17,796 nt of DNA. It comes from Planctomycetota bacterium. Lineage in GTDB: Bacteria; Planctomycetota; PUPC01; DSUN01. The stretch is from assembly GCA_016872875.1 (NCBI GenBank), contig VGYW01000154.1, forward strand, positions 1-17,796, written 5' to 3'. The notes below the pieces were generated by a model. It saw nothing but the letters and a program-made list of their open reading frames with translations, was not told the origin of the DNA and did no database searches. Position 1 is the first letter of the stretch, and every line of letters starts with the position of its first letter. Of the stretch, positions 869 through 17,796 are shown one piece after another. The translations under genes were made by a program, and so were the position numbers.

Positions 869-1206
869 GCCTCTGGTTGGCCGCCTTTCACCATTTTGTG
901 CGCTTGCAACAATCGTGCCGCTCCGACTGAAAAGCGGGCGTTCCGCCGATCATCGAGCGGCGCGCCGTAAGGTGCTCGGGACTCGACACTTACGTCGAGC
1001 CGGCTCCGACCGTGCGGCTGCCGAATCGGTCGCGTCACAGGGCACGTGTCCACTCGCTTGCACTGGGCCGTCCGCTTTTCCAGAACCAGCGCCACAATCA
1101 ATGAGGCGGCATGGACTTATGAACGGGCGGTTTCGTCAGGAAACGCGGACGACGCGTCCCCCACGCAGGCGTTCTGCCGAGGGGCGGCTGGGGGTCCCGG
1201 AATGGC
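869..1206. other. Intergenic region without a convincing gene
   Basis: Between the PilZ stop and the sugar transferase start I find no ORF with plausible composition or family resemblance. The only structure is a 6-bp-arm hairpin, CTCGAC (982-987) with GTCGAG (994-999), loop ACTTAC. It could be a leader or termination structure, but there is no T-tract. No good promoter hexamer pair for the sugar transferase was found. Confidence 0.5.
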
Positions 1207-1966: not shown

Positions 1967-2205
1967 CTAGCCCGCATTTCTCACCAGCGGCTGGTGAGAA
2001 ATGCGGGAACCACCAAACCACAAGCACCAAGCGCCAAACAAGCCCCAAACTCCTCAATCCTCAATGGTCCAAGCGGAGACTACGTGGTGTTGCCCGCGAC
2101 CCTGGGGGCTTGCTTTGGTCATTGAGTATTCCGGGCTTGGAGATTGTTTGGTGCTTGGCGTTTGGCTCTTGGGATTTCCCGCATTTCGTGAGAAATGCGG
2201 GCTAG
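1967..2205. repeat. MITE-like palindromic element with 18-bp terminal inverted repeats
   Basis: A 239-bp element bounded by perfect 18-bp terminal inverted repeats: CTAGCCCGCATTTCTCAC at 1967-1984 and its reverse complement at 2188-2205. Each end folds into a hairpin. The left one (1971-2007) has 18-bp arms and a one-base loop; the right one (2178-2201) is shortened to 10-bp arms with loop GTGA, as if 13 nt were deleted. The interior is an imperfect palindrome of CCAAGCACCAA-like words. The left half is repeated inverted at 1-127. No ORF encodes a transposase, so the element would be non-autonomous if mobile. Its right terminal CTAG supplies the TAG stop codon of the epsI gene. Confidence 0.85.
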
Positions 2206-2849: not shown

Positions 2850-2865
2850 GGGCGCTCTCCCAGCT

Positions 2866-5505: not shown

Positions 5506-5569
5506 GTGGCGACAAGCGTCCCGCTTGTCGAAGGGCGAGGAGGGGCGCAAGCGAGACGCTTGCGGCTAC
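5506..5569. repeat. Inverted pair of REP-like hairpins
   Basis: Two similar hairpin units face opposite ways. The plus unit (5506-5530) has head GTGG and stem CGACAAGCG/CGCTTGTCG with loop TCC. The minus unit (5546-5569) has head GTAG and stem CGCAAGCG/CGCTTGCG with loop TCT. Heads point outward, spacer is 15 nt. CGCTTGCGG also occurs alone at 5491-5499. The minus-unit head GTAG contains the TAG stop of the hydrolase remnant (5566-5568). Confidence 0.8.
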
Positions 5570-5904
5570 TCTCCCCGACGCGTGTGCTCGAGGATGAACT
5601 CGACGGCGGGGGCCGGGTCGTCGAGGCCATGGGGGTGGTGGCCCATGCCCTTCTTGGCCAGGAGCGCCAGGTCAATCTGCGGGAAGGCACCGAAGAACTC
5701 CGCCCGCCACACCCACGGCTTCCCCGCGGCGGTTTGCTTCGGCACCACCACAATCGTCTGGCACCCATCCACCACAAAGTCGCGCCGCTCATAGCCCCTG
5801 TAGTTCCCGACCTTCCCGGGCAGCGCCGCCTGCCCAGCCGCGGCGTGGACGCCGGCCGCAGCGACGATGAAGCCCAACGCAGGAAGCCACAGCTCGGCAG
5901 TCAT
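5566..5904 (-). pseudogene. Alpha/beta-hydrolase remnant with internal deletion
   Basis: The 112-aa product starts with a signal-like hydrophobic segment, then YRGYERRDFVVDG and KPWVWRAEFFGAFPQIDLAL, which I recognise as the start of secreted alpha/beta-hydrolase (prolyl-oligopeptidase-like) proteins. It then jumps from LLAKKG straight to GHHPHGLDDPAPAVEFIL, which resembles the C-terminal histidine motif and tail of the same family. The middle, about 150-200 residues with the nucleophile serine (GxSxG), is absent, so catalysis is not expected. The join keeps the frame and needs no frameshift. ATG at 5904 overlaps the HEPN stop as ATGA, with GGAG about 12 nt upstream. The stop codon falls in the head of a REP-like repeat. 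It may be a dead gene or a small secreted leftover; family assignment is from memory of the pattern. Confidence 0.65.
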
Positions 5905-6302
5905 TCGCTGGGTTGCTCCAAGGGCAGAAGCGGCTGCACAAGGTCCAGGAAGCGCCGCGCATCGGCGACGGCTTGCTGGGCATCGGCCATGGTCACGTGT
6001 TGGGACCCGCCATAATCGGCCAGGTCGCGTAGATCGTGTAGCCGTATGAGGGTTCTGCCAGCTTCCCTGGGCACGCGCCCCTCCTTGACGTAGTACCTGT
6101 GGAATGAGGCAATGACCCCACTATGCCTGCGGAACCGCCTGTCGTCAGATAGCAGCAGGGCGGACGCAGCGTAGAAGACCGCATAATAGGATCGTGCCGC
6201 AGCGAAGTCAGGGTCCCCGCTCGTCAGGTCCCTCTCCGCAACGGTGAGCGCCCTCGTGGCGCGCTGCCAGAGGTCGCTGATCTGCTGGAGACGCCGGTTC
6301 AT
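5901..6302 (-). CDS. HEPN domain protein (UPF0332-like), probable partner of the nucleotidyltransferase
   Basis: A 133-aa helical HEPN protein (PF05168-like), recognisable by ARSYYAVFYAASALLL (residues 36-51), RRHSGVIASFHRYYVKEG (58-75) and LRDLADYG (91-98). In MNT-HEPN toxin-antitoxin systems the HEPN partner is the toxin, often an RNase with an Rx4-6H motif, silenced by AMPylation by the nucleotidyltransferase. Here R92 is followed by DLADY and the next histidine is at 102, so the canonical motif is missing or altered; R92-x4-Y97 is the nearest match. Start ATG 6302 overlaps the nucleotidyltransferase stop as ATGA, and the hydrolase remnant follows with another ATGA. Toxicity is not shown by the sequence. 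Confidence 0.85.
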   Translation of the reverse strand: MNRRLQQISDLWQRATRALTVAERDLTSGDPDFAAARSYYAVFYAASALLLSDDRRFRRHSGVIASFHRYYVKEGRVPREAGRTLIRLHDLRDLADYGGSQHVTMADAQQAVADARRFLDLVQPLLPLEQPSE

Positions 6303-6883
6303 ACTGGCACGCCCTCATCGTGGATGTTCTGGTAGAGCATGGACTCCCCCCTCTCATAGCTCGCGGCGTCGGCGGGACGGATGGAGATGGCCCTATCGCA
6401 CTCGAGTTGCACCGGATAGAGTTCCTCCCAGATTCGGCGAATCTCCGCGCCGGCGTTCACGGGGCCGTCCAGGAGCACCAGCAGGTCAACGTCGCTCTCC
6501 GTCGTGTCCTCCCCACGCGCAGTGGAGCCGTACAAGATGACCGCTTTGAGTCGGTCGCCATACATGGCCTTCAGGACGGCCTTGCACTTCAGCAGGATCG
6601 GGTCATCGGCGCGCATCCGGCGGCGCGAGACGGTCCGAGGGGCAAGGCGCCCCACGGCGTGGTAACCGACGCGCTTGATGTAGAGGAAAGCGTTTGGGTG
6701 CTTCGCCCTCGCCCGCCGCATCGCCGCAAGCTTATCTGCATCCAGCTCATAGTCGCCCGTGGCAACGTCGAGGTACAGGTACTCCCCCTTGTGGTCCGGC
6801 TCCAGCTTCGCGCGGAGGACGCGGTCATAGTAGTCCTCGGCTCGGCGGGCGAATGCCTCGCGGTCTATAGCCACGCCGGCCAT
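6299..6883 (-). CDS. Nucleotidyltransferase (MNT-like) with fused N-terminal domain
   Basis: The 194-aa protein has two parts. Residues 95-194 form a minimal nucleotidyltransferase: LYGSTARGEDTTESDVDLLV fits GS-x10-DxD (G119, S120, D131, D133), with a likely third acidic residue D163 in LECDRAI. Such proteins AMPylate and silence a HEPN partner in MNT-HEPN systems. Residues 1-82 form a separate domain (LEPDHKGEYLYLDVATGDYE, ARAKHPNAFLYIKRVGYHAV) that resembles small stand-alone bacterial proteins of about 80 aa with no assigned function. They are joined by a basic linker (RTVSRRRMR). ATG 6883 has GAGGAG 8 nt upstream; the internal ATG at 6616 has no ribosome site, so the fusion is probably real. 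The HEPN gene overlaps its stop. It is probably cotranscribed with HEPN and the hydrolase remnant. Confidence 0.86.
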   Translation of the reverse strand: MAGVAIDREAFARRAEDYYDRVLRAKLEPDHKGEYLYLDVATGDYELDADKLAAMRRARAKHPNAFLYIKRVGYHAVGRLAPRTVSRRRMRADDPILLKCKAVLKAMYGDRLKAVILYGSTARGEDTTESDVDLLVLLDGPVNAGAEIRRIWEELYPVQLECDRAISIRPADAASYERGESMLYQNIHDEGVPV

Positions 6884-6908
6884 TGGGACAGCTCCTCACT
6901 CAAGACGC

Positions 6909-6942
6909 TCCCGGTAGGCATTATACAATGAGGACACCGGGA
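6909..6942 (-). promoter_or_regulatory. Candidate promoter -10 box inside an inverted repeat upstream of the MNT-HEPN unit
   Basis: On the minus strand TATAAT lies at 6920-6925, 37 nt before the nucleotidyltransferase ATG. No good -35 hexamer is seen. It is enclosed by a 7-bp inverted repeat, TCCCGGT (6909-6915) and ACCGGGA (6936-6942). The layout would suit an operator for autoregulation, but binding is not shown. Confidence 0.45.
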
Positions 6943-6965
6943 ACGCCAGCGCGCGACGAGGGCCG

Positions 6966-7010
6966 TTTTTTTTTCCCTCCTTGACAAGTGGGAAGTCACA
7001 GGGGTATAAT
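6966..7010 (+). promoter_or_regulatory. Near-consensus sigma-70 type promoter with upstream T tract
   Basis: TTGACA at 6981-6986 and TATAAT at 7005-7010 are separated by 18 nt, both perfect hexamers. A run of nine T (6966-6974) precedes the -35 box, where an UP element would lie; it stands out in this GC-rich DNA. The predicted transcript would start near 7017 and have a leader of about 60 nt before the pseudopilin ATG at 7077. Confidence 0.8.
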
Positions 7011-7076
7011 TAGGTGTCGGAAGGTGCGCTCAGTCACTGGCGGGAGCCACACGGCGCGTTTGGGGGTCATCAAGCC

Positions 7077-8483
7077 ATGCGTAACGGAGCAGTTCCGGGC
7101 TTCTGGGTGCCTCGGCCCTCGTGCCGGCGAGGGTTCACCCTCGTCGAACTCCTCGTCGTCATCGCGATCATCACGATCCTGGCCGGCCTGCTGTTGCCGG
7201 CTATCGTGTACGCGCTGGCCGTGGCCGACCTGAACCACTGCATCAACAACCTGCGCCAGATCGGCCAGGCGAACACGAGCTACACGACGAACTTCGACTC
7301 CTACATGGTCTCGTGCGGGAACCGGGCGATCCTGGCCCCTGGCAACGGCCCGTTCGTCGAGCCGCCGCTCGACTGGGACGTCGCGGTCAGGGTATGCCAG
7401 GGCACAACGCCGGCCGAGCAGCTCCAGGCGACCAAGTTCCCCTTCTGGTACGCTGCCCTCGCGACCTACATCAACCCCGCAGTCACCTGGAAGAACGCCG
7501 TAAAGTCGTACACCAACAGGACCGGCAAGGCGGAGAGCGACGCCGACAACACGTACTACCATATCGAGATGGCGCGCATGTGCATGCTCTTCGCGTGCCG
7601 GGCCAAGAGCCAGGCGGTGATCGGCTACGGCTACAACTATGCCGCCCCCTTCGGCGAGTCCATCCTCTACCCGTTCAACCAGAAGCTCTACGGGCGGGAC
7701 TTCCCGGCCACCGCGTGCAGCGGGTCAAGAATGGGGAATGCTGCAGACAAGCCTAATGCGCCGGACCAGTGGTGCTGGCCGTACGCCCCTGGGGGCGGAA
7801 CCGAGCCGCAGGGCTTCACCCCCTATCCGTGCTTCCAGGCGGGGCATCCCGCCGCGGTGCCCATCCTCTACTACGGCCAATCCGTCCACGCCAGCGCCCT
7901 CAACGACCCCAGCAACCAGATCGCGGTCTGCGACACCGGGCTGGTGACCAACAGCCCGACGTGGAACTACGACGGCTCGGGCTACTTCATGCCCACGAGC
8001 AACTACGCCCCGCCCACCGAGTGGCGCGAGCGCACGACGGGTCTCTCCGCCGAGAACTGGACCGGCTACGTCCGGTTCCCAATGTCCCGAGTCTATTCGG
8101 GCGCCAACATCACGTCCGGCTTCCCCGACTCCCTCTTCACCAGGGTCGGCCTCTACAAGCTCTACTACACGTCCTACAGCCCGTCCACCGACGCCGGGGA
8201 GGACATCTCGCTCAACCGCGGCTGGCGCCCCGTGCCGCGCCACAACAAGCGGACCGCCTGCATGTTCTTCGACGGCCGCGCGAGGGCGCTGAACATCATG
8301 GACATCGTGAGCTACGAGTGGGGCGACAGCAAGTGCCTCTTCGACAACAAGCCTACCACCAAGTCGCCCGCCCCCAAGTATGCCGTCCCCCCCGCACTCG
8401 ACGGCGGCGCCTCCGGCGGCGTCTACCAGAACTCCTGGCTCCCCATCCGCAAGGGCGACGGGTCGGTTGACACCACCCAATAG
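7077..8483 (+). CDS. Type II secretion/pilin-like protein with prepilin N-terminus and H-x9-DG motif
   Basis: A 468-aa protein starting with a prepilin leader: [19 protein letters not shown], with predicted prepilin-peptidase cleavage between G and F (residues 19-20) followed by the hydrophobic stalk. The C-terminal part contains [12 protein letters not shown], the H-x9-DG signature of a very large PVC-group family of pseudopilin-like proteins (DUF1559-related). The body is rich in Tyr, Asn, Pro and Gly and is probably an extracellular domain. Function is unknown; such proteins occur in dozens to hundreds of copies per genome. ATG 7077 is chosen because an in-frame GTG at 7014 lies at the expected transcription start; the ribosome site GGGGGT is weak. 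A convergent neighbour ends at 8582, with REP-like hairpins between the two. Confidence 0.9.
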
Positions 8484-8504
8484 CTGAAGATCAAGTGGGA
8501 GTTT

Positions 8505-8562
8505 GTAGTGCGGCCTTCAGGCCGTGTCTCAGGGTCCGGACACGGGTTGAAGCCCGCACTAC
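8505..8562. repeat. Inverted pair of REP-like units with GTAG heads
   Basis: Two 24-nt units, 8505-8528 (plus) and 8539-8562 (minus), are separated by 10 nt. Both start GTAGTGCGG and end GTGTC. Their central hairpins are CGGCC-TTCA-GGCCG and CGGGC-TTCA-ACCCG; the second base pair set changes on both sides, mostly preserving pairing. They sit between two converging genes, where they may act as a bidirectional transcription barrier. No T-tract is present. Confidence 0.82.
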
Positions 8563-8581
8563 CAACCCTTCCCCTCAGGTG

Positions 8582-9514
8582 TCACTGGCTCAGTGGCGCG
8601 AAGCGGCGGGCCAGGGCGGCGTCCTCCCCCGCCTGGTCCTGGTAGCGCGGGAACATCCCCACAATCACCGCGTCGCTCTTCTTGATGTTCGCGAAGGCGG
8701 ACTGGACGGCGGCCTCGACGTCTTGCGGGCGCTCGCAGCGGCGGCCCGCGGCAAGAATCTTGAACGCAAGGCAGGGACGCTTCACCTGGCGGATGAGCTC
8801 GCACATCCGCGCCGGGTCGCCGGACATGTAGGCGCCGCCCAGGGGCGCCTCGCCCATCCCGAACTCCTTCCTCAGCTCCTCAGCCGTGCGAGTCACGCGG
8901 TAGAAGCAGGTCATGTAGAGGTCGAGTTCCCAGCCCTGGTCCTCGGCGTTGCGGATGACGTCGGGGTTGTGGGCGGAGAGGCCGGCGAGGAGGCCCAGGT
9001 CCTTCACCCGCTTGGCGAAGTCGCGGGCCGCCGCGATCTTCCCCTCGCGCCAGAGAGAGTCGCTCAGGCCCCCGTGGTGGACGATTGCGATGGGCCTGTT
9101 GCGGCGGACGATCTCCTTGAGCGCCCCGGCGTCCTCCGTGTGCGCCTTGTGGGCGAGGAACACCCAGTGGATGTCGCGTCCCCCTTCGCGAAGGGTTCGG
9201 AGCGCGGCGTCCACCTTCTCGTGGGCCGAGGTCTGCCAGGCGTTGATTCGCACCTCCAGGCAGCGGAGCAGCAGCTTCTGGATGTTCTCCGCCGTGTAGT
9301 AGTCGGTCATGACGCGGCTCATGAGGCCGCTGAGGTGGGAGAAGCCCAGGATGGGGTTCGAGCCTACGATGAGGCGGCTCACGTCGTAAGGGCCGAGCTG
9401 CACCCGCGGCAGTTGCTCGTCGGGCGCCGCGCCCAGCACGATGCCCCCGCCGCCCAGAGCGGTCGTTCCGATGCCCACGGCTGCCTCCTTCAGAAACTCG
9501 CGTCGGCTGCGCAT
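8582..9514 (-). CDS. Tat-exported TIM-barrel oxidoreductase, aldo/keto-reductase-like
   Basis: A 310-aa protein with a twin-arginine signal, SRREFLKEAA at residues 3-12 followed by a hydrophobic glycine-rich stretch, so it is probably exported folded. The body looks like an (alpha/beta)8 barrel: VQLGPYDVSRLIVGSNPILG, HWVFLAHKAH, PIAIVHHGG, LLAGLSAHNPDVI, LDLYMTCFYRV, RPCLAFKILAAGR and SDAVIVGMFPRY. The opening and the LSAHNPDVI strand recall aldo/keto reductases, but I cannot place the full Asp-Tyr-Lys-His tetrad, so activity and substrate are open. ATG 9514 is chosen because AGGAGGT ends 6 nt before it; GTG at 9517 is too close. It follows the heparinase-like gene on the same strand after 106 nt that contains two hairpins. 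Confidence 0.75.
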   Translation of the reverse strand: MRSRREFLKEAAVGIGTTALGGGGIVLGAAPDEQLPRVQLGPYDVSRLIVGSNPILGFSHLSGLMSRVMTDYYTAENIQKLLLRCLEVRINAWQTSAHEKVDAALRTLREGGRDIHWVFLAHKAHTEDAGALKEIVRRNRPIAIVHHGGLSDSLWREGKIAAARDFAKRVKDLGLLAGLSAHNPDVIRNAEDQGWELDLYMTCFYRVTRTAEELRKEFGMGEAPLGGAYMSGDPARMCELIRQVKRPCLAFKILAAGRRCERPQDVEAAVQSAFANIKKSDAVIVGMFPRYQDQAGEDAALARRFAPLSQ

Positions 9515-9536
9515 CACACGACCTCCTCAGTCCAGT

Positions 9537-9601
9537 CACAGGCTGGAAGCCTGTGCCACCGCCCTTTCCCAGAAGGTGGCACAGGCATCTTGCCTGTGTC
9601 C
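9537..9601. repeat. Inverted pair of REP-like hairpins (CACAGGC family)
   Basis: Two hairpins: CACAGGCT/AGCCTGTG around GGA (9537-9555) and CACAGGCA/TGCCTGTG around TCT (9580-9598). Each has 8-bp arms and a 3-nt loop. With their GTGG heads they form a 12-bp inverted repeat, GCCTGTGCCACC (9549-9560) and GGTGGCACAGGC (9575-9586), heads facing inward. They lie between the heparinase-like and oxidoreductase genes. A related single copy sits inside the SBBP gene at 15741-15769. Confidence 0.85.
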
Positions 9602-9620
9602 CCACTTCCCGAAACAGGAG

Positions 9621-11573
9621 CTACTTTGGTGGCACGCCGTCCGGCGGCTCGGCGGGCCATTGCTTGAGGGGGGTCAGGCTCCGGCTCGCCGCCGGCGGCG
9701 CGGCGCCCCGGTAGGGCGTCAGGAGCACGGCCAGCCTGGCCTCCTTCACCCCCGGCAGGCGGATGAGGAGGCGCGTGATCCCTTCGTTCTGCGCCTGCGG
9801 CCTCGGCGGCGTGGCCGAGGCCGACTCGAACTTCGCTCCCGCGGGCTCGAGGAGCGTTGCCAGCAGGCAGCTCTCGCCAATCCTGAGCGTCGCCGCCGAG
9901 CCGTCCGCCTCCACCTTGGCCGCCGTGTGAAGGGTCCAGACCACCTCGGCGGGGGCCTTCAGCTCCACCTCGTCCTGGACGAGGACCTCCTTGCGGTCGA
10001 GGAGTGCGATGCCGCGCCACCAGCGGGCCGTGCCCTTGTTCGCGGCGGAGAGGTCGGCGACGCCGAAGGCCTTGGCGTCGGTGGAGCCGAAGGCGATGAT
10101 GGGCGCCTTCGCCGAGGGGTCCTGGTTCTCGCCCCCGAGTGTCAGGGTGTTGTGGCCCTCGGTCCGAAGGCGGTAGTAGGTCCAGCGCAGCTTCCCGAAG
10201 AAGCCGGGCAGGTTGTAGTCGTCGGCCCCCAGGTCGAGCGCCCAGCGTTGGCCCAGGGCGTCGAGGACGAACGTGCCCAGGTCCAGGTGCGAGTGGTTGG
10301 CCTTGTTGTCGCCCCCCTTGAAGCCCACGAAGATGGCGTCGCGGTCCTCCCACGCGGAGCGCAGGAAGACGACCTCGACTCCGCGGAAGCGGCGGTCGAG
10401 GGGCCATTGCTCTGTCTTCGGCCCCTGGCCGCGCGGGTCGAACCAGAGGAGGTCCAGGGCGTCGGGGCGGCCGTCGGACGCCCGCTCGTGCCAGGCATAG
10501 CGCGGCTTGTCGAGCGTGCGGGCGAGCCAGAACATCTCGGCGGCGCGGCCCGAGCGGTCGCCCGCGTCGGCGTAGTTGAACGTGCGGCCGATCGGGCCGC
10601 AAAAGTGGAGCCGGAAATCGCCCGCCTTCGTGAAGCCCGGCATCTCGGCCAGGAGGCCCAGGTCGGTGCCGAGCGCGCTCTGGAGGGCGGCGAGGTAGTA
10701 GACGTTGTAGCGGGTGGCGTAGTGCCAGTAGCCTGGGCCTTCGGCCCAGCCGCCCTCCGGCTCGTAGCTCCTCATCGCGCGGACGATGGAGGCGCGGGCC
10801 GCGGCGACGATTTCGGCGGCCAGCTCCGGCTTCTCATCGGCGATGGCCAGCGCCCCGATCGCGGTCCCCCCGTTGCACACCTGGTTCCAGTTGTGGACCG
10901 ACTTCGCCCACCAGCCGCCGCCGTCGTAGACCCTTTTCGCGGGGAGCAGCCCCTTCTGCACGATGGCCTCGACCACGGTGCGGCGTTGCTCGGGCGTCAG
11001 GCGGTCGTAGAGCCAGTCGTAGCCGATGGCCGCCGCGTGGGTCATCTCCGCCGTGTCGAGGAAATGGGGCGGATGCCAGTCCTGGAACCCGCACACGTTC
11101 ATCAGCTCACGCACGGCCCTGTCCGCAAACTCCCCGGGGTTGTAGGCGGGGCGCCCTTCTGTGGGCGGGGCCTCCGTGCCCCGCGTCTTCCCCTTCTCAT
11201 CGCGGGGGACAGAGCCCCCGCCCACATCTCCCCCCAGGCGATAGAGGAGGCCCAGGGTGTAGATGCGGTCGCAGGCGGCCCGGCTCACGTGCAGGAGCCT
11301 TGGGCCGACGAGCTTGTATTCCAGCAGCGGCTCCTTGAGGTAGCGCTCCGCCTGGGTCCGCAGCGCGTTGTAGTACTCCTTCGCCAGGGGTTCCTTCCTG
11401 ATCATCTCCCGCACCCGCTCCAGGTCGCCTTCGAGCGCGATGAGGCGGGGGTGGCCTTTGCGCAAGTTTTTGAGGATTGCCTGGTCGGGGGCCGCAGGTC
11501 CCCCCTCTCCCGCCACGGCACCCAAGGCCGCCAGCGCCACGCACAACACGGCAAGCAACGTCCCAGCGTCCAT
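9621..11573 (-). CDS. Heparinase II/III family protein (putative polysaccharide lyase)
   Basis: A 650-aa exported protein: signal peptide in residues 1-22 (TLLAVLCVALAALGAVAG), an alpha-helical toroid (about 30-400) and a beta-rich C-terminal heparinase II/III domain (PF07940). Markers are HPPHFLDTAEMTHA, IGYDWLYDRLTPEQ, VHNWNQVCNGG, EGGWAEGPGYWHYATRY and, at 419-450, KGGDNKANHSHLDLGTFVLD, with H427/H429 and later EGHNTLTLGG. The family cleaves uronate-containing polysaccharides by beta-elimination; the substrate here is unknown. Residues about 114-147 (GGDVGGGSVPRDEKGK onward) interrupt the conserved run between the helix ending TLGLLYRL and FADRAVRELMNV and are encoded largely by a palindromic repeat. 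ATG 11573 is chosen for GGAGG 7 nt upstream and the signal peptide. The adjoining oxidoreductase gene may be cotranscribed. Confidence 0.88.
   Translation of the reverse strand: MDAGTLLAVLCVALAALGAVAGEGGPAAPDQAILKNLRKGHPRLIALEGDLERVREMIRKEPLAKEYYNALRTQAERYLKEPLLEYKLVGPRLLHVSRAACDRIYTLGLLYRLGGDVGGGSVPRDEKGKTRGTEAPPTEGRPAYNPGEFADRAVRELMNVCGFQDWHPPHFLDTAEMTHAAAIGYDWLYDRLTPEQRRTVVEAIVQKGLLPAKRVYDGGGWWAKSVHNWNQVCNGGTAIGALAIADEKPELAAEIVAAARASIVRAMRSYEPEGGWAEGPGYWHYATRYNVYYLAALQSALGTDLGLLAEMPGFTKAGDFRLHFCGPIGRTFNYADAGDRSGRAAEMFWLARTLDKPRYAWHERASDGRPDALDLLWFDPRGQGPKTEQWPLDRRFRGVEVVFLRSAWEDRDAIFVGFKGGDNKANHSHLDLGTFVLDALGQRWALDLGADDYNLPGFFGKLRWTYYRLRTEGHNTLTLGGENQDPSAKAPIIAFGSTDAKAFGVADLSAANKGTARWWRGIALLDRKEVLVQDEVELKAPAEVVWTLHTAAKVEADGSAATLRIGESCLLATLLEPAGAKFESASATPPRPQAQNEGITRLLIRLPGVKEARLAVLLTPYRGAAPPAASRSLTPLKQWPAEPPDGVPPK
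11160..11226. repeat. Inverted pair of REP-like hairpins inside the heparinase-like gene
   Basis: A 67-nt palindrome with 11-bp outer arms, TGTGGGCGGGG (11160-11170) and CCCCGCCCACA (11216-11226). Each half is a hairpin with a GTGG head: GCGGGGC/GCCCCGC (loop CTCCGT) and, on the minus strand, GCGGGGG/CCCCCGC (loop CTCTGT). The halves differ by a compensatory C-G to G-C swap. It encodes about residues 116-138 of the protein without breaking the frame. The first half, 26 nt, is repeated exactly at 13051-13076. Confidence 0.87.
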
Positions 11574-11615
11574 GCTCGGCCTCCGAGTCCACTTGTGAAT
11601 GACTCTCCTCATCCC

Positions 11616-11644
11616 ACCATGCCTACTGAGGCAGGCGAAGTCAA
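11616..11644 (-). promoter_or_regulatory. Weak candidate promoter for the heparinase-like gene
   Basis: On the minus strand TTGACT (11639-11644) is followed after 17 nt by CATGGT (11616-11621), only three of six matching the -10 consensus. Position, 43 nt before the ATG at 11573, is reasonable. The evidence is weak. Confidence 0.3.
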
Positions 11645-11658
11645 GCGCGGATGCCACA

Positions 11659-11687
11659 TTGGACTTTGGCGATGCCGCGAGTATAAT
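11659..11687 (+). promoter_or_regulatory. Near-consensus sigma-70 type promoter for the oxidoreductase-GT-isomerase operon
   Basis: TTGGAC at 11659-11664 and a perfect TATAAT at 11682-11687 are separated by 17 nt. The predicted start near 11694 gives a leader of about 34 nt before the TTG start at 11728. No other promoter is obvious downstream until 15413, consistent with one transcript for three genes. Confidence 0.8.
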
Positions 11688-11727
11688 AGCGCCGCCACCT
11701 TTCAGGCGTTCCGGGAGAGGAGCTGCG

Positions 11728-13161
11728 TTGATAGTGATCCTCGGCGGCGGCATCGCGGGCCTGAGCGCGGCGGAGACGCTGCGCGGCCGGACCGAGCTGC
11801 CCATCAAGGTGCTCGAACGCGACGCCGTCCTCGGCGGGGCGAGCCGCACGGTGCGCTTCGGGGACTTCCGCTACGACCTCGGCGGCCACCGCTTCTACAC
11901 CAAGAAGGCGAACGTCCAGGCACTCGTCGAGCGGCTCATCGGCCCCGACCTTCTGACCGTGGACCGCGTGAGCCACATCTGCTTCCGCGGGAAGATGGTG
12001 GACTACCCGCTGACGGCGCTGAACGCGCTCTCGGCGCTCGGCTGGGGACGGGCATTCGCCGCCGGCTGCGGCTACCTGGCCAACCGCGTGAAGGAGGCAT
12101 TCCGCCCCTCCCCTGGCCTGACCTTCGAGCAGTGGGCCGTGAGCCGCTTCGGGCGGCCCCTCTACCGCGCCTACTTCAAGGGCTACACGGAGAAGCTCTG
12201 GGGCGTGCCCTGCGACTGCCTCTCCGCCGACTTCGCGGAGCAGCGGATCAAGGGCCTCTCGCTCCGCGAGGTCATCCGCGACGCCCTCTTCAAGCGGGGC
12301 AAGGCCACCACGCTGGTCCGCCACTTCCTCTATCCGCGCCTGGGCTTCGGCATGATCCCCGAAGCGATGGCCGCCGGCTGGCAACTGCCGAACGAGCTGC
12401 TCGTCAACTCCCCCGCCGAGAAGGTCATCCACGACGGCAAGCGGATCGTCGCCGTCGAATCGCGCGGCACCAGCTTCCCCGTCACCCACTGCGTCAGCTC
12501 CCTGCCGATGGACGACCTGGTGCGGCTGCTGGAGCCGCGGCCGGAGCCAGCGGTCCTCGCCGCCGCCGAGAAGCTGCGCTACCGCGACCTCGTGACCCTC
12601 TTCGTGACCTTCCGGCGCGAGCGCGTCACCCGCGACCACTGGATATACTTCCCGGACGCGGACTGCCCGTTCGCGCGCTTCCACGAGCCGAGGAACTGGA
12701 GCTCGGACATGGCCCCGCCCGGCCAGACCGGGCTGGTCATCGAGTTCTTCTGCCAGCGCGGCGACGCCACGTGGAACGCCCCGGCCGACGCGCTCTACGG
12801 CCAGGCCCTCGACTACCTGGAGCGCGCCCGGCTCGCCCGCCGCGCCGAGGCCGGCCCCTGCGACCTCCAGCGCGTCCCGAAGGCATACCCCGTCTACGAA
12901 CTCGGCTACCACGCCCACGTGGCCGCCATCCTCGGCTGCCTCGGCTCCTTCGAGAACCTCCACTCGGTCGGCCGCAACGCGCTCTTCCGCTACACGAGCG
13001 CCGACCACTACATCGACATGGGCATGAGCGCCGCCGAGAACATCCTGGCGTGTGGGCGGGGCCTCCGTGCCCCGCGGATTGACATCGCCCGCATCGGCAC
13101 CGAATCAGGCTACGCCGAAGATGGCGCATTCCACGCCCCAACGCATCCTCCAGCGGCTTGA
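11728..13161 (+). CDS. FAD-dependent oxidoreductase (amine oxidase / UDP-galactopyranose mutase-like)
   Basis: A 477-aa flavoprotein. The N-terminus is a dinucleotide-binding fold, IVILGGGIAGLSAAETL (residues 2-18), with VLERDAVLGGASRTV and the FAD motif YDLGGHRFYTK near 50-60. The middle has YFKGYTEKLWGVPC, the C-terminus DHYIDMGMSAAEN. Proteins of this pattern are encoded near glycosyltransferases and are annotated as protoporphyrinogen-oxidase- or UGM-like; the substrate is unknown. TTG 11728 is chosen because AGGAG lies 5 nt upstream and the Rossmann strand begins at once; GTG 11734 is the alternative. Residues 442-450 (CGRGLRAPR) come from a REP-like hairpin and interrupt the usual tail after AAENILA. 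The GT87 gene starts inside its last 41 nt in another frame. Confidence 0.85.
   Translation: MIVILGGGIAGLSAAETLRGRTELPIKVLERDAVLGGASRTVRFGDFRYDLGGHRFYTKKANVQALVERLIGPDLLTVDRVSHICFRGKMVDYPLTALNALSALGWGRAFAAGCGYLANRVKEAFRPSPGLTFEQWAVSRFGRPLYRAYFKGYTEKLWGVPCDCLSADFAEQRIKGLSLREVIRDALFKRGKATTLVRHFLYPRLGFGMIPEAMAAGWQLPNELLVNSPAEKVIHDGKRIVAVESRGTSFPVTHCVSSLPMDDLVRLLEPRPEPAVLAAAEKLRYRDLVTLFVTFRRERVTRDHWIYFPDADCPFARFHEPRNWSSDMAPPGQTGLVIEFFCQRGDATWNAPADALYGQALDYLERARLARRAEAGPCDLQRVPKAYPVYELGYHAHVAAILGCLGSFENLHSVGRNALFRYTSADHYIDMGMSAAENILACGRGLRAPRIDIARIGTESGYAEDGAFHAPTHPPAA
13052..13076 (+). repeat. Single REP-like hairpin inside the FAD oxidoreductase gene
   Basis: GTGG head with stem GCGGGGC/GCCCCGC and loop CTCCGT. 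Including one T before it, 13051-13076 is identical over 26 nt to 11160-11185 in the heparinase-like gene. It is read in frame near the protein's C-terminus. Confidence 0.85.
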
Positions 13162-14503
13162 GACCGCTCTCGGCCGCGTCGCCGCAAGCCGCATCTTCCA
13201 GTTCGCGCTGGCCCTGTCCGTCGGCGCGTTCGCCTGCAACGCCTGGCACCGCGCCACCCAGCTCAAGAAACACGCCCCCGAGGGAGCCAAGACCCCCGAC
13301 GAGGCCCGCCAGCTCCGCCACAGCTCGGAGTTCCTCGGCTTCCGCCGCATCGTGCAGGAGTCCATTCTCCGCGGGGCGGACCACTACTGGACAATCAGCC
13401 ACATCCGGGCCTACCCGCCGTTCTTCGCAATCGCCTTCGCACCCTTCGGGCTGCTCCCGCTGCGGCTGGGCGCCGCGCTCTTCGTCGCCCTCTCGCTGTT
13501 CTTTGGACTCTGGTCGGTCTGGCGCTGCGCGCGGGGCTCGCAGCCCGCGGCCAGCGTGCCGGGCCGGGCTTTCATCCTCTTCCTCGTCTCTGTCATCTTC
13601 ATCGGCAGCGTGGTGGCGCGCTGCGAGAGCGACATGCTGGTGCTCCTGCCCATCGTGGGGGCCTTCGCCCTCCTGCGGAAGCCCGCCTGGGACCGGTCGC
13701 TGGGCGCCGGCGCCCTCCTGGGCTTCGCCGCGGCGCTCAAGCTCACCCCGGCGCTCTTCGGCCTCTATCTCGTCGTCCAGCGCCGCTGGATGGCCCTCCT
13801 CGGCATGGCCGCGTCCGCCATCCTCCTCGTCGCCGGCCTCGGCTCGCTCGTCTGGGGACCCAAGGGCAACCTCGAACGCCACCTCTCCTGGTACAAGATC
13901 GTCGTCCAGCCCATCTCGCAGGGCGGACCTCAGGCCCCCAGCGGGCGCGGCGACGGGCAGCCCATCATCTCGCGGCCCTACCGCAACGTCAACCAGTCCC
14001 TCACCGCCGCCCTCTTCCGCTTCCTCTCCGGCAAGAGGGCCCACCGGGGCGAGGTCGAGCAGCCCTGGGAGCTCTACCTCAACGTTGCCAGCCTGGACGA
14101 CCGCACGATCTTCGCCATCGCCAACACCCTCAAGCTGCCCATCCTGGCGCTCCTGCTCTTCGCGTGGTGGCGCTCCGCGCGCAGCGGCCAGTGGCCGCCC
14201 AACGCCGCCGCCTTCGGCCTGGCCGTGCTCGGCTGCCTCCTCCTCAGCCCGGTCTCCCTCCACACCCACCACGCCGTCCTCATGATCCCCTTCGGCGTCG
14301 GCCTGGCCGCCATCTCGGGTGGCGAACAGCGCCACTCGAACCGCGTCGCTTGGGCTCTCCTCATCGCCCTGCTCCTCATGGGCGTCACCGCCCTCGAGCT
14401 CGGAAAAGTCCTCTCCTCGCTTGCCGTCGCAGACCTGCTCCTCTTCTACGTCCTCTTCAGAGTCGCCACCGCCCCTCAACCCTCAGCAGGAAACGTCCGA
14501 TGA
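13121..14503 (+). CDS. GT87-type membrane glycosyltransferase (DUF2029)
   Basis: A 460-aa multi-pass membrane protein resembling the glycosyltransferase 87 family (PF09594), which uses polyprenyl-phosphate sugars on the outer face of the membrane. Supporting stretches: YPPFFAIAFAPFGLLPL (98-114), RCESDMLVLLPIVGAFAL (168-184), GALLGFAAALKLTPALFGLYLVVQRRW (197-223), and RPYRNVNQSLTAALFRFL before a final set of membrane helices with LLSPVSLHTHHAVLMIPFG. About ten hydrophobic segments are visible. ATG 13121 overlaps the oxidoreductase gene by 41 nt and has only a weak ribosome site (GAAG), so translation may depend on coupling. It ends by ATGA overlap with the isomerase gene. The sugar and acceptor are not known; a role in glycan or glycolipid decoration with its neighbours is inferred. 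Confidence 0.85.
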   Translation: MAHSTPQRILQRLETALGRVAASRIFQFALALSVGAFACNAWHRATQLKKHAPEGAKTPDEARQLRHSSEFLGFRRIVQESILRGADHYWTISHIRAYPPFFAIAFAPFGLLPLRLGAALFVALSLFFGLWSVWRCARGSQPAASVPGRAFILFLVSVIFIGSVVARCESDMLVLLPIVGAFALLRKPAWDRSLGAGALLGFAAALKLTPALFGLYLVVQRRWMALLGMAASAILLVAGLGSLVWGPKGNLERHLSWYKIVVQPISQGGPQAPSGRGDGQPIISRPYRNVNQSLTAALFRFLSGKRAHRGEVEQPWELYLNVASLDDRTIFAIANTLKLPILALLLFAWWRSARSGQWPPNAAAFGLAVLGCLLLSPVSLHTHHAVLMIPFGVGLAAISGGEQRHSNRVAWALLIALLLMGVTALELGKVLSSLAVADLLLFYVLFRVATAPQPSAGNVR

Positions 14504-15297
14504 AGTTCAGCTTCATGACCTTCTCGTGTCCCAACCTCACCTGGGGCGAGGTCCTGGGCGTTGCGAAGCGCCTGGGCTACGACGGGGTGGAGCCGCGCGC
14601 GCAGTCGCGCCACGCCCACGGCATCGAGGTCGCCGCGACCTCCGGCCAGCGCGCCGCCATCCGCAAGCTGGCCGAGGACTCCGGCGTCGCCATCGCCTGC
14701 CTCGCCACCTCGTGCTCCTACACCGCGCCGACGCCCGGCGAGCTGAGCCGCATGATGGCCGACTCCCGCGCCCTCATCGCCCTCGCGCGCGACATTGGGG
14801 CGCCCGCCATGCGCGTCTTCGGCGGCAACATCCCCCAGGGCATGAGCCGCGAGGCCGCCGAGGGGCAGGTCGCCGACTGCCTCGCCAAGCTCGCCGAGGA
14901 CGCCCGCGCCGCCGCCGTCACCCTCTGCGTCGAGACCCACGACTCCTGGTGCAACGCCGCCCACCTCGCCCGCGTCCTCGACCGCGTGGGCCACCCAAGC
15001 GTCCGCGCGAACTGGGACATCATGCACCCTGTGAACGCCGCGGGCATGACGATGGACGAGGCGTTCGCCCACCTCCGCCCCCACGTCCGCCACGTCCACT
15101 TCCACGACGGCAAGCCGGGCGCGAAGGGGCTCGACCTCTGCCCCATCGGCCAGGGCATCGTTGACCACAAGCGCGCCGTCCAGCTCCTCAAGAGCATCGC
15201 CTACAAGGGCTTCCTCAGCGGCGAATGGATCAACTGGGAGCCGTGGCAGACCCACCTCCCCCGCGAACTCGCCACGATGAAAAGCTACCTGGCGTGA
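14500..15297 (+). CDS. Sugar phosphate isomerase/epimerase (xylose isomerase-like TIM barrel)
   Basis: A 265-aa single-domain TIM barrel of the AP-endonuclease-2/xylose isomerase-like family (PF01261). Visible: LGYDGVEPRA near the start, VAIACLATSCSY, RVFGGNIPQG, VTLCVETHDSW with E145, RANWDIMHP with D173 and H176, VRHVHFHDGK with H202, and GFLSGEWINWE with E242. These four metal-ligand positions are what this fold uses for a divalent metal, so it is probably an active isomerase or epimerase; the sugar is unknown. ATG 14500 overlaps the GT87 stop (ATGA) with CAGGA upstream. It is the last gene of the operon started at 11659; a GC-rich stem-loop follows. Confidence 0.9.
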   Translation: MKFSFMTFSCPNLTWGEVLGVAKRLGYDGVEPRAQSRHAHGIEVAATSGQRAAIRKLAEDSGVAIACLATSCSYTAPTPGELSRMMADSRALIALARDIGAPAMRVFGGNIPQGMSREAAEGQVADCLAKLAEDARAAAVTLCVETHDSWCNAAHLARVLDRVGHPSVRANWDIMHPVNAAGMTMDEAFAHLRPHVRHVHFHDGKPGAKGLDLCPIGQGIVDHKRAVQLLKSIAYKGFLSGEWINWEPWQTHLPRELATMKSYLA

Positions 15298-15305
15298 CGT
15301 GCCCA

Positions 15306-15362
15306 GTCGTCGTCGTCAAATGCTCTTGCCAGGAGGAAGCCAGCGGACTCGACGACGACGAC
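15306..15362. repeat. Trinucleotide inverted repeat downstream of the isomerase gene
   Basis: GTCGTCGTCGTC (15306-15317) and GACGACGACGAC (15351-15362) form a 12-bp stem with a 33-nt loop; the GAC/GAG-rich run continues to about 15390. It may end transcription of the operon, though there is no T tract. Similar GACGAGG words occur inside the deacetylase gene at 4746-4836. Confidence 0.6.
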
Positions 15363-15412
15363 GAGGACGACGACGAGGACGAGAAGATAGGAGGACGCGC
15401 GCGACAATGCCC

Positions 15413-15441
15413 TTGACAACGGGGCGGCCACGTGTCATGAT
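15413..15441 (+). promoter_or_regulatory. Candidate promoter for the SBBP-repeat protein gene
   Basis: TTGACA at 15413-15418, 17-nt spacer, CATGAT at 15436-15441 (four of six -10 positions). The start would be near 15448, giving a leader of about 36 nt before ATG 15484. Confidence 0.6.
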
Positions 15442-15483
15442 GCCCACGCCGTACCGAAGCTGTTTCTCTTGAGGAGTCGAAGC

Positions 15484-17796
15484 ATGGTCGCACGGAACCG
15501 GCGGTTCGTCGGAGCGGAGAGGCCCACGAGGAGGGGCGAGCGCCTGGCCCTCGAGCCGCTCGAGCCGCGGGTGCTGCTCGCGGCGGGCGCGGCCGTCGAG
15601 GTCCTCAATGCCTCGCCCGCGCTCTTCGCGGCCAACCTGGGGCAGTGGGCGGACCCCGCGGTGCGCTACGCCTTCCAGACCTCCGGCGGCAACGTGCTCC
15701 ACACCGACGCCGGCCCCGTCTTCCAGCTCTTCCAGAGCGAGGACACAGCCGAGGGCGGCTGTGCCACACAATTCTCAGTGACCTTCGAGGGGGCGAGCAC
15801 CGTGGCCCCAAGCGGCCAGGACGCCTCGCAGGCGGTCTACAACTACTACGTGGGCGACCCCTCCAGTTGGCGCACCGGCGTGCCAACGTTCCAGACCGTC
15901 GCCTACGAGGACCTCTGGTCGGGGATTGACCTGCTGACCTGGGGGCGGCGCGACGGGCTGAAATACGAGTTCCACGTCGCCCCCGGCGCCGACCCTGCGC
16001 AGATTCGCCTCCGCTACGACGGCATCGAGGGCCTCTCGCTCGATGATAGCGGCGCGCTCCGCATCGCGACCGCGCTCGGCGAGGTCACTGATGACGCCCC
16101 AATCATCTACCAGGAGGTCGGCGGCCAGCGCGTCCAGGTGGCGGGCGCCTTCTCCCTCATTGACGCCACGACCTACGGCTTCGCCATCACCGGCTCCTAC
16201 GACCCGCAGGCCGAGCTCGTGATTGACCCGCTGTTGGGCTGGTCAACGTATCTCGGTGGCGCTTCCGCCGACGATGGTTACGCCATCGCGTTGGATGGCT
16301 CGGGGGCCGTGTTCGTTACAGGCGTGACGGCCTCGGGGGACTTCCCGACCCCCGGTGGCTTCGACACGACGCTGGGCGGCACCCAGGACGCCTTCGTGAC
16401 GAAACTGAACCCCACAGGCACCCTGCTCTGGTCGAGCTTCCTTGGGGGCTCGGGACTGGAGGGAGGTTACGCCATCGCGGTGGACGGCTCGGGGGCGGCC
16501 CTCGTCACGGGCATGACCGAGTCCCCGGATTTCCCGACGGCTGGGGGCTTCGACACAACGCTGGGGGGCACGCGGGACGCCTTCGTGGCGAAGGTCAGCG
16601 GGGCGGGCGCCCTCCTCTGGTCGAGCTACCTCGGCGGGGCGGGCGCGGACGCAGGCTACGGGATCGCGCGGGACGGCTCAGGAGCGGCCATGCTCACGGG
16701 ATCGACCGAGTCCGCGGATTTCCCGACTGCCGGCGGCTTCGACGCGACCCTGGGCGGCACCGAAGACGCCTTCGTGACCAAGGTGAGCGGAACAGGCGTC
16801 CTCCTCTGGTCAAGCTATCTGGGCGGTGCGGCGGGCACGGACAGGGGCTACGGCATCGCGGTGGACAATTGGGGAGCTGCCTTCCTCACCGGCGCGACGT
16901 CCTCCACGGATTTCCCGGTCCCTGGTGCGCTGGACACGAGCCTGGGGGGGCCTGAAGACGCCTTCGTGGCCCAAGTGAGTGGGGCAGGGGGCCTTCTGTG
17001 GGCGACCTACCTCGGCGGGTCGAACGCCGACTCGGGCTACGGCATTGCCGTGGACGGCTCAGGGAATGCGGTCGTCACGGGGTCCACGCAGTCGCCGGAC
17101 TTCCCAACGCCCGTGGGCTTCGACACGCTGCTTGGGGGCGGGCAGGACGCCTTCGTGACCAAACTCACCCCGACGGCCTACATCTGGTCGAGCTACCTGG
17201 GCGGCTCAGCCGGCGACACCGGCTATGCCATCGCGCTGGATGCGGCGGGCAACGCTCTCATCACGGGCGTCACGGGCTCGCCGGACCTCGCGACGCCCGG
17301 CGTCTTCGACACCACGCTGGGCGGGAGCCTGGACGCGTTCGTGGCAAGGGTGGGCGTGGGTGGGGCGCTCCTGTTCGCAAGCTACCTGGGCGGGTCGGGC
17401 ACGGACCTCGGGTCCGGCATCGCTGTGGATGGCTCGGGGAACGCCTTCGTCGCCGGAATGACCTCGTCGCCGGACTTCCCGACGCCCGGAGGGATCGACA
17501 CGACGCTCGGCGGCACGGGCGACGCGTTCGTGACCAAGATCGTGAACTCGCCGCCGACCCTCACCGCTGTGGCGCCGCTGCCGGGCGCGACGGAGGACCA
17601 GCCCTTCACAATCCCCTATGCCACCCTGGCCGGAGCCGCCGACGATGCGGACTCCGACGGCGACACGTTGAGCTTCCGCATCGAGGCCGTGACCACCGGC
17701 ACCCTGACCGAGGGCGGCGTGCCCGTGGTCCCAGGCACCACCCTGCTCTCCCCGGGCGAGAGCCTGGTGTGGACTCCCGCCGCGAACGCCAACGGA
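15484..17796 (+). CDS. Secreted SBBP-repeat beta-propeller protein with cadherin-like domain (3' end outside window)
   Basis: Open through the window end: 771 residues, no stop. ATG 15484 has GAGGAG 7 nt upstream. Residues 23-34, LEPLEPRVLLAA, match the LEPR-LL signature at the N-terminus of giant exported proteins in Planctomycetota. Residues about 38-250 form the domain that usually precedes SBBP repeats (FAANLGQWADPAVRYAF, GLKYEFHVAPGADP, LVIDPLLGWSTYLGG). Seven SBBP repeats (PF06739) of 62-64 aa follow, residues 253 to about 686. From about 690 a cadherin-like/Ig-like domain begins (ATEDQPFTIPYATLAG, DADSDGDTLSFRIEAV). Probably a large extracellular adhesin or structural protein; whether it ends in an exosortase sorting signal cannot be seen. 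Residues 86-96 (EDTAEGGCATQ) derive from a REP-like hairpin. Confidence 0.9.
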   Translation, partial: MVARNRRFVGAERPTRRGERLALEPLEPRVLLAAGAAVEVLNASPALFAANLGQWADPAVRYAFQTSGGNVLHTDAGPVFQLFQSEDTAEGGCATQFSVTFEGASTVAPSGQDASQAVYNYYVGDPSSWRTGVPTFQTVAYEDLWSGIDLLTWGRRDGLKYEFHVAPGADPAQIRLRYDGIEGLSLDDSGALRIATALGEVTDDAPIIYQEVGGQRVQVAGAFSLIDATTYGFAITGSYDPQAELVIDPLLGWSTYLGGASADDGYAIALDGSGAVFVTGVTASGDFPTPGGFDTTLGGTQDAFVTKLNPTGTLLWSSFLGGSGLEGGYAIAVDGSGAALVTGMTESPDFPTAGGFDTTLGGTRDAFVAKVSGAGALLWSSYLGGAGADAGYGIARDGSGAAMLTGSTESADFPTAGGFDATLGGTEDAFVTKVSGTGVLLWSSYLGGAAGTDRGYGIAVDNWGAAFLTGATSSTDFPVPGALDTSLGGPEDAFVAQVSGAGGLLWATYLGGSNADSGYGIAVDGSGNAVVTGSTQSPDFPTPVGFDTLLGGGQDAFVTKLTPTAYIWSSYLGGSAGDTGYAIALDAAGNALITGVTGSPDLATPGVFDTTLGGSLDAFVARVGVGGALLFASYLGGSGTDLGSGIAVDGSGNAFVAGMTSSPDFPTPGGIDTTLGGTGDAFVTKIVNSPPTLTAVAPLPGATEDQPFTIPYATLAGAADDADSDGDTLSFRIEAVTTGTLTEGGVPVVPGTTLLSPGESLVWTPAANANG
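15741..15769 (-). repeat. Single REP-like hairpin inside the SBBP gene
   Basis: Stem CACAGCCG (15744-15751) and CGGCTGTG (15756-15763), loop AGGG. The flanks GGACACAG and CTGTGCCAC match the intergenic copy at 9575-9601, showing the same family. It is read in frame as DTAEGGCAT in a region where related proteins have a short loop before QFSVTFEGA. Confidence 0.75.
16240..17541 (+). repeat. Seven tandem SBBP repeats (about 189 bp each)
   Basis: Units begin with the W/F-[SA]-[ST]-[YF]-L-G-G motif at 16240, 16429, 16618, 16807, 16999, 17185 and 17374; spacing is 189, 189, 189, 192, 186 and 189 nt. Each unit carries YLGG, GYxIAxDGSG, VTGxTxSxDFPTxGGFDTTLGG and DAFVxK. Units differ at many codons, so the array is diverged rather than freshly duplicated. 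The last unit varies (FASYLGG, GIDTTLGG). Confidence 0.93.

Follow-up and report, generated by a model that had tools for sequence, protein, structure and literature searches.

REP-like GTRG-headed hairpins, between and within genes, in a planctomycete DNA stretch and its relative

Results

Ten hairpin units of one plan

A 17,796-nucleotide stretch of DNA from a Planctomycetota bacterium (hereafter the window) carries ten hairpin units that combine a GTGG (seven units) or GTAG (three units) head with a GC-rich stem and a short loop, and that include four inverted pairs, A to D. The unit families occur at high copy number in a relative genome, G151, where a RAYT gene lies amid units of family D, and some units sit in frame within genes whose compared homologues lack the encoded residues. 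We consider it very probable that these are GTRG-headed REPs moved mostly as REPINs/BIMEs by RAYTs, that families C and D insert widely, and that the copies now found in genes are tolerated survivors.

Pair A consists of a plus-strand unit at 5506-5530 (GTGG head, stem CGACAAGCG, loop TCC) and a minus-strand unit at 5546-5569 (GTAG head, stem CGCAAGCG, loop TCT), with the TAG of the latter head doubling as stop codon for the minus-strand gene 5566-5904. Pair B (8505-8562) sits between convergent genes, and its plus-strand unit at 8505-8524 has a GTAG head and the short stem CGGCC(T)/(A)GGCCG, while its minus-strand partner at 8543-8562 joins a GTAG head to an imperfect stem. Pair C is formed by units at 9537-9559 on the minus strand (GTGG head, stem CACAGGCT, loop TCC) and 9576-9598 on the plus strand (GTGG head, stem CACAGGCA, loop TCT). 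Pair D lies within a heparinase II/III-like gene (9621-11573, minus strand) and comprises 11161-11184 on the plus strand (GTGG head, stem GCGGGGC, loop CTCCGT) and 11202-11225 on the minus strand (GTGG head, stem GCGGGGG, loop CTCTGT). The heads lie outside in pairs A, B and D and inside in pair C. Two units are single: unit E of the D family (13052-13075, plus strand, GTGG head), identical in sequence to 11161-11184 and located near the C-terminus of an amine oxidoreductase-like gene (11728-13161, plus strand), and the C-like unit F (GTGGCACAG...CTGTG; 15744-15767, head on the minus strand), located within a DUF7948/SBBP repeat gene (15484-17796, plus strand) that continues past the window end.

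The preliminary description of this DNA had recognised at least ten units of one plan in a planctomycete-like host; the units were confirmed, and its reading of the host was correct. Scanning the window for a GTRG head, a stem of at least 7 bp (a threshold that both the short and the imperfect B stem miss) and TC in the loop gave eight matches, against a mean of 0.065 and a maximum of 1 in 200 order-1 Markov sequences. One match, at 10728-10749 inside a conserved coding motif, is probably due to chance. GTGG was the most frequent tetranucleotide adjoining hairpins in the window (10 cases), and the heads stand 0-2 nt ahead of a short-loop stem, as is characteristic of GTAG REPs. A search of the window with Rfam returned five weak miRNA-family matches, all below gathering scores and none at the units.

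Copy number and pairing in related genomes

The 80 loci found via the oxidoreductase (closest 56% identity) held at most 3.6 GTRG-headed hairpins per 10 kb, compared with 6.2 in the window, and those listed contained none of families A to D; a relative was therefore sought by pattern instead. Across 392 genomes of the phylum, the D pattern had 326 exact copies in G151, five in its family-mate G166 and zero in the remaining 390, and the C pattern occurred in 10 genomes, with 68 exact copies in G151 and 20 in G314; reversed-pattern controls for C and D gave 0. G151 shares 82% DNA identity with the window over one common gene, and it is through this relative that the high copy number typical of GTAG REPs is seen.

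Complete pairs of the window are found again in G151 (D at 10, A at 13, B at 3 and C at 1 of the 46 places listed, with 40 of 1274 candidates scored), and close neighbours of families A to D in 800 kb of that genome have their heads outside in 23 of 33 cases, in keeping with the mostly inverted BIME/REPIN pairing of GTAG REPs. Over 400 kb of G151, GTAG was enriched 7.0-fold (20 cases) and GTGG 4.3-fold (27 cases) beside hairpins; ATAG stood higher at 10.8-fold, but with 8 cases. The preliminary description had called the units REP-like and their pairs BIME-like, and had held that scarcity per genome or unenriched heads would tell against this; instead, copies are numerous in the relative, both heads are enriched, and the four window pairs are matched by whole pairs in G151. 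A T precedes 96% of 31 D units, as would be expected if cutting were at C|T (PMC8266576).

A RAYT gene amid D units

The RAYT gene of G151 (L157:6044-6775, minus strand) matches NF047646 at 98.4 bits (cut-off 80), encodes the motifs PDHVHW and YVHQNP, and has no IS200 match at E 0.001. D-family arrays lie on either side of it, and four D units fall within its own reading frame, so that the Y1-type RAYT gene flanked by units of its own family, which the preliminary description had proposed to look for, was found for D, in the relative. Given this gene and the high copy number of the same families in G151, the units are best classed as RAYT-type REPs/REPINs, and we infer that this RAYT moves the D units. 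None of the scanned window genes is a RAYT, and the RAYT link is thus drawn from G151.

Flanking units of the A or C family were absent from the 26 inspected Y1 genes of G151 (19 + 7, with a weak C32 match left out). An A-like GCT-loop family lies at least 694 nt from one G151 Y1 gene, and the B family is represented by a single unit adjoining a RAYT fragment of 49.3 bits, below the cut-off. In another genome, G147, TCC-loop units flank a RAYT-like piece on both sides (76.6 bits, cut-off 80). Two Y1 genes of G151 (C54 and C552) are IS200 transposases, and the GTAG hairpins near them have GAA/AA or GTGA loops and do not belong to A to D.

Position of the families relative to genes

Genes were called with a hexamer scorer made for this analysis. 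Of 50 C/D sites in 1.2 Mb of G151, 39 lay entirely within genes, compared with 16 of 43 A/B sites (A 10/25, B 6/18; Fisher p 1.1e-4). Another family, R1, had initially been pooled with A and B as RAYT-type; since one R1 unit adjoins an IS200 gene, A/B alone serves as the principal contrast. The difference was less marked in a second sample (C/D 15/21 against A/B/R1/A2 6/16, p 0.052). The pooled in-gene fraction of C/D, 0.78, is slightly under the coding density of 0.887 (p 0.024). These two families in G151 depart from the extragenic location typical of GTAG REPs. In-gene units with at least 90 nt on both sides (first 800 kb of G151) had the same best coding frame on each side in 50 of 50 cases; with shorter flanks, six of nine failed this two-sided test. 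Overall, 51 of 884 predicted proteins in the 1.2-Mb sample (~6%; families A to D and K counted jointly) carry REP-encoded segments.

In G314, sampled as 20 stretches of which seven were picked for C matches, C-family sites within genes numbered 0/7 and A-type sites 0/8, which indicates that lineage matters for family C. The same C units are GTGG-headed, and the head alone was accordingly rejected as the cause of in-gene location. Stop-free frames alone were also rejected, given that five of six frames are likewise open in the consensus sequences of A and R1, families that are more intergenic; the B consensus is open in four. There was no convincing three-base bias in pair length (7 of 11 in-gene C/D spans with several units).

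Insertions in proteins of the window

The heparinase-like protein gains 30 residues from the D pair, complete in the query, partial (20) in P0126 and lacking in the remaining 118 of the 120 compared. They are placed between two predicted helices, H94-113 and H146-161, where the two lowest ten-residue blocks have a pLDDT of 37-38. Unit E adds seven residues to the oxidoreductase, complete in the query only, with two residues in one other of the 120 compared; they come directly after helix H425-443, the last one predicted, where the tail is of low confidence, and the net gain of 21 nt is smaller than the 24-nt unit. Three in-gene sites had been claimed to add residues, and homologues that encode the same residues with no repeat had been named as what would overturn this. 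At D and E the homologues are without the extra residues. Unit F sits in a linker that varies in length and composition; the claim of added residues holds for two of the three sites.

In G151, two pairs in a glycosyltransferase add residues missing from 15 aligned homologues. No empty site at the DNA level was obtained from G151 orthologues, as the only one covering an in-gene unit, that of the heparinase, already has the pair. This D pair, common to the window and G151, has been kept across ~18% DNA divergence.

Covariation of the stem arms

Units were gathered with no pairing requirement, and the match to their own 3' arm was compared with 2000 shuffles of the arms. No shuffle equalled the observed match for A (130 candidates, of which 23 were perfect and 14 had a single mismatch) or for D (90 candidates, 43 perfect), and 16 did for C (42 candidates, 15 perfect), where the signal is weak. 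The remaining A candidates were mostly chance matches. In the G151 orthologue of the 11202-11225 unit, the stem reads GCGGCGG in place of GCGGGGG, with both arms changed at pair 5 (G-C to C-G). The compensatory stem changes noted in the preliminary description are thereby upheld for A and D and, weakly, for C.

Discussion

A coherent sequence of events can be proposed for these elements. REP-associated tyrosine transposases would move the units, mostly as inverted pairs, by recognising single-stranded hairpins through head and loop, cutting beside a T and joining them into new sites. In the lineage to which the window and G151 belong, C and D would insert widely, and insertions in genes would persist if they keep the frame and are located in loops, linkers or tails; survival so limited would leave proteins with short, tolerated extra segments, which we take to be neutral. 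A further possibility, which we regard as doubtful, is that C and D are here intragenic elements, whose GTGG head and six-frame stop-free sequence let RAYT-driven spread proceed within genes almost as easily as in intergenic space, affecting ~6% of proteins and the RAYT itself.

The in-gene units might instead be kept as useful, through surface-loop diversification or mRNA control with selected folding. The joint change of both arms at pair 5, the persistence of the common D pair over ~18% divergence and the covariation of A and D would fit such a role; yet the host proteins are unrelated to each other, the two modelled inserts fall in predicted low-confidence loops or tails, and the C family lies outside genes in G314 (0/7 sites). 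Template-switch repair at hairpins could restore or keep matched arms with no selection, so that matched arms need not mean, as the preliminary description had it, that folding is selected; we consider usefulness unlikely. Fortuitous palindromes in GC-rich coding DNA, or errors of assembly, would explain one chance-like scan match of eight, but for A, C and D they are refuted by the shuffle controls, the copies in the relative and the reversed-pattern controls, and their likelihood is negligible.

The remaining alternatives concern the moving enzyme. The IS200 transposases beside other GTAG hairpins in G151 raise the question of whether the units derive from IS200/IS605 elements, as their ends or as MITEs, but those hairpins belong to other families, the shared end hairpins of MITEs were not found, and the gene amid the D units, which a curated model assigns to the REP-type transposases, gave no IS200 match at the threshold used; we judge this origin very improbable. 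Similarly improbable are intragenic palindromes of the Rickettsia RPE kind, with no dedicated transposase: PMC3733652 relates in-frame insertion into unrelated genes for RPEs as well, which speaks for them, but the heads are GTRG and not CGTC, and the RAYT surrounded by D units refutes them for D. RAYT-driven movement with tolerated in-gene survivors thus remains our preferred account.

By definition REPs are extragenic, a confinement usually put down to the cost of landing in genes. Families whose share in genes comes close to that of the available space, next to families of like build that do not reach it, allow one to ask what limits a mobile repeat, the candidates being its own sequence, the target choice of the transposase and the strength of host selection. 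The sampled 1.2 Mb also provides natural in-frame insertions, in 51 host genes, that map tolerant protein loops.

Comparison with known systems

Rickettsia RPEs are likewise palindromes inserted in frame in unrelated genes; according to PMC3733652, RPE-4 and RPE-6 belong to a CGTC class with no dedicated transposase, and neither the CGTC tag nor that absence applies here, where heads are GTRG and D has a RAYT. Pseudomonas REPINs (Bertels and Rainey 2011, PMC3116915) share the inverted doublets that recur as a unit and the tie to a RAYT, but are described there in extragenic space, unlike C and D. Some members of RAYT/TnpA_REP subclass 2.8 are reported to carry a REP insertion, as does the G151 RAYT with its four units; that subclass is cyanobacterial in the sample of PMC6006769, and the likeness is drawn on the insertion.

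A further likeness, drawn from described traits, is to the REPs of the GTAG superfamily, including Opitutus terrae GTAG-20 (Di Nocera et al. 2013, PMC3733652), which share the GTAG/GTGG head, stems mostly of 6-9 bp, short and often TY loops, head-outside dimers, several families per genome, RAYT association and a head TAG that doubles as the stop codon of a flanking ORF. As described there, most REPs are intergenic, but GTAG members lie inside ORFs in several species. Opitutus terrae, with one family chiefly GTGG-headed, accounts for most of these, and in-ORF dimers or groups encode 20-30 residues. The preliminary description had held an intragenic REP class to be notable; the in-frame position in genes stands, but the combination is not new, as PMC3733652 already reports intragenic GTAG/GTGG REPs. 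What is new is the host, an uncultured planctomycete, and the scale, with two families mostly in genes in the G151 sample.

Hairpin units and their distribution in the phylum

The window contains ten hairpin units, four inverted pairs and two singles, which share the plan of GTGG (seven units) or GTAG (three) head, stem and short loop that the preliminary description had proposed, at positions that differ from its own by a few bases at most. Families A (5506-5569), B (8505-8562) and C (9537-9598) each form an inverted pair, family D comprises a pair (11161-11225) and the single unit E (13052-13075), and unit F (15744-15767) is a C-like single. TC is present in the loops of A to E, and the F loop is CCCT. 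Hairpins with a GTRG head, TC within the loop and a stem no shorter than 7 bp numbered 8 in the window, against a mean of 0.065 and a maximum of 1 in 200 order-1 Markov sequences. A list of 13 GTRG-headed hairpins compares with a local-shuffle average of 1.4 and a maximum of 3 (30 shuffles); among the 13 are an unrelated palindrome (x2), a stem counted once on each strand and two matches that are probably due to chance.

The top-ranked named protein matches of the window were planctomycetes. Across 392 genomes of the phylum, the C pattern matched in 10, with 68 copies in G151 and 20 in G314, and a reversed C-pattern control gave none. The D family is more narrowly distributed: G151 has 326 copies, its family-mate G166 has 5 and the other 390 of the 392 genomes have none; units are thus many per genome in G151 (68 C, 326 D), not few. 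Judged on sequence, G151 is a true relative, because window genes match it at the DNA level (69-82% identity along stretches of at least 800 nt) and its heparinase-like orthologue is 82% identical across 1837 nt; no close orthologue of the oxidoreductase was found there (best 29%). Whole window pairs recur in G151 at least 10 times for D, 13 for A, 3 for B and once for C (46 places listed), lower bounds since scoring covered just 40 of the 1274 first-look candidates.

The pairing of the stems was examined by gathering units without requiring a stem and comparing each unit's own 3' arm with shuffled arms. None of 2000 shuffles reached the own-arm match for A or D, and 16 of 2000 did for C, a weak result; chance accounts for most of the 130 A candidates, and the 37 that have no more than one mismatch carry the signal. 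These results support paired change, and with it the compensatory changes first suggested, for A and D and weakly for C. Hairpin template switching could be a mutational route to matched arms, as an alternative to selection.

REP-associated transposases and a proposed mechanism

Pfam searches returned 19 matches to Y1 transposases in G151. The preliminary description had proposed looking for a RAYT gene flanked by units of its own family, and one was found for D in G151, at L157:6044-6775(-) (NCBIfam REP-associated tyrosine transposase, 98.4 bits, cut-off 80; motifs PDHVHW and YVHQNP). Beside it lie D arrays of six units (5715-5990) and four units (6807-6982), four D units in a row lie in its own reading frame (6446-6604), and a further array occupies 3116-3426. 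This protein has 24 matches in G151, part of them falling on D units themselves. Three RAYTs above the cut-off in G314 are each flanked on both sides by GTAG units, with TC or TT loops and a B-like build on C153 and C4 and GCT loops on C168. TCC-loop GTRG units flank a RAYT-like piece of G147 (L190 1226-1948; 76.6 bits, below the cut-off) on either side; the piece sits inside a very long open frame. Two G151 Y1 genes beside other GTAG hairpins turned out to be IS200 transposases; no A or C units flanked Y1 genes among the 26 inspected in G151.

TnpA_REP is described as acting on single-stranded hairpins via head and hairpin features and cutting at C|T (PMC8266576). The base before D units is T in 96% (n = 31), consistent with the element starting at that T. 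We propose that RAYT would copy or move REPINs, the inverted REP pairs, to sites with little preference between genes and gaps, and that selection would afterwards purge insertions breaking a frame or domain.

Units inside genes

The location of units was investigated in 60 G151 stretches of 20 kb, a non-random sample taken from the starts of the longest contigs, with genes called by a hexamer scorer whose training set was the first 40 stretches; an earlier scorer, trained on the first 20, had recovered the expected window genes. Units at most 150 nt apart were merged into a site, counted when wholly inside a gene. In the first 800 kb, 24 of 29 C/D sites lay in genes against 10 of 36 for A, B and the further families R1 and A2; the next 400 kb gave 15/21 against 6/16 (p 0.052), and the pooled 1.2 Mb 39/50 against 16/52. 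A (10/25) and B (6/18) together (16/43) differ from C/D with Fisher p 1.1e-4, and 4 of 7 sites of family K were in genes. Coding density was 0.887, to which the pooled C/D share is slightly inferior (p 0.024), and random insertion with survival of the in-frame third predicts about 0.72, which over the first 800 kb fits C/D (p 0.22) and not A/B/R1/A2 (p 4.9e-8). By these comparisons, C/D look like near-random, well-tolerated insertions and A/B look partly kept out of genes, for which RAYT target choice, family age and the cost of the encoded peptide are candidate causes. By head, 59 of 74 GTGG and 23 of 66 GTAG units (A-D, G151) were in genes; the GTGG head as sole cause was rejected, since none of 7 GTGG-headed C sites in G314 (coding 0.758) lay in genes.

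Over the first 800 kb, the best coding frame was identical to the left and right of the unit for all 50 in-gene units with flanks of at least 90 nt; of 9 more with a shorter flank, 6 failed this test. Of 884 predicted G151 genes, 51 host one or more units of families A, B, C, D or K.

Insertions in individual proteins

Three in-gene sites had been proposed to add residues, and in alignments of 120 proteins those of D and E are missing from nearly all. Unit E adds 7 residues close to the oxidoreductase end, complete in the query only (one other protein has 2 there); the model sets them in a tail of low confidence that follows the last helix. The heparinase-like protein gains 30 residues from the D pair, of which P0126, a protein of the G151 orthologue's type, has 20; in the model these residues lie between two helices (lowest blocks pLDDT 37-38). 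Between the window and G151, one stem of this pair has exchanged G-C for C-G at pair 5, a change in both arms, and the spacers differ by 12 nt. The claim does not extend to F, which lies in a linker of widely varying length with no clean insertion seen in the homologue alignment; it may serve as a place where repeats land, because two homologues carry GGASLPR- or GAASVPR-like residues there that resemble a translated D unit. A G151 glycosyltransferase carries two pairs that contribute about 18 and about 15 residues, which are absent from 15 aligned homologues of other genomes (those with long matches among 29 other loci).

Other features of the window and its relatives

Positions 1-127 and 1967-2095 form an inverted repeat some 128 nt long (arms 87 + 41 nt, 99-100% complementary), which contains a 37-nt palindrome (87-123, 1971-2007) and TTGGTGCTTGG-type repeats; nearby, 2100-2204 is 99% identical to G151:C560:7-111, against 69-82% in long shared stretches. 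Genes at 176-5446 (sugar transferase, PilZ, DUF3485, exosortase, DUF3473/deacetylase) form what we take to be an exopolysaccharide/exosortase cluster. The polysaccharide deacetylase gene (4409-5446; KSEIRNPKSEIAN) carries a GATTTCGGATTTC repeat (5346-5382) in frame close to its start, and comparable peptides of the IRNPQSAIRN type are encoded by 3 of the 884 predicted G151 genes. The short minus-strand gene 5566-5904 may have lost an internal piece, because its match in G151:C146 is split into two, with about 490 nt between the parts. Adjacent HEPN and nucleotidyltransferase genes (5901-6883) presumably represent the usual MNT/HEPN toxin-antitoxin arrangement. A GTCGTC/GACGAC-rich repeat past the TIM-barrel gene (15311-15387) matches two G151 places at 86-94%. 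Proteins at G151 L126 1689-3236 and 6220-8181 carry the in-frame repeat-like peptides CPERSRR and SPGAGEK. Each peptide occurs in a single one of the 884 predicted genes, and they may represent additional classes of short repeat within the genes of this lineage.

Comparison with known systems

REPINs were described from extragenic space (PMC3116915), and some subclass 2.8 transposases carry REP insertions (PMC6006769). PMC3733652 describes 24 families of GTAG REPs, often with TY loops, among them Opitutus terrae GTAG-20 with GTGG in most units, and reports REP families in R. baltica; it places the majority of REPs between genes. A head TAG serving as stop codon is already known there, as in the window, where the TAG in the head of the second A unit (5566-5569) ends gene 5566-5904. 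The combined in-gene class expected to be notable is likewise partly anticipated in that source, with in-ORF GTAG cases chiefly in O. terrae and in-ORF dimers or groups encoding 20-30 residues. Open-licence literature on REPs/REPINs, planctomycetes and in-frame or coding palindromic elements yielded no description of this lineage. The kind of element is already known, and its strongly intragenic variant in this lineage is new.
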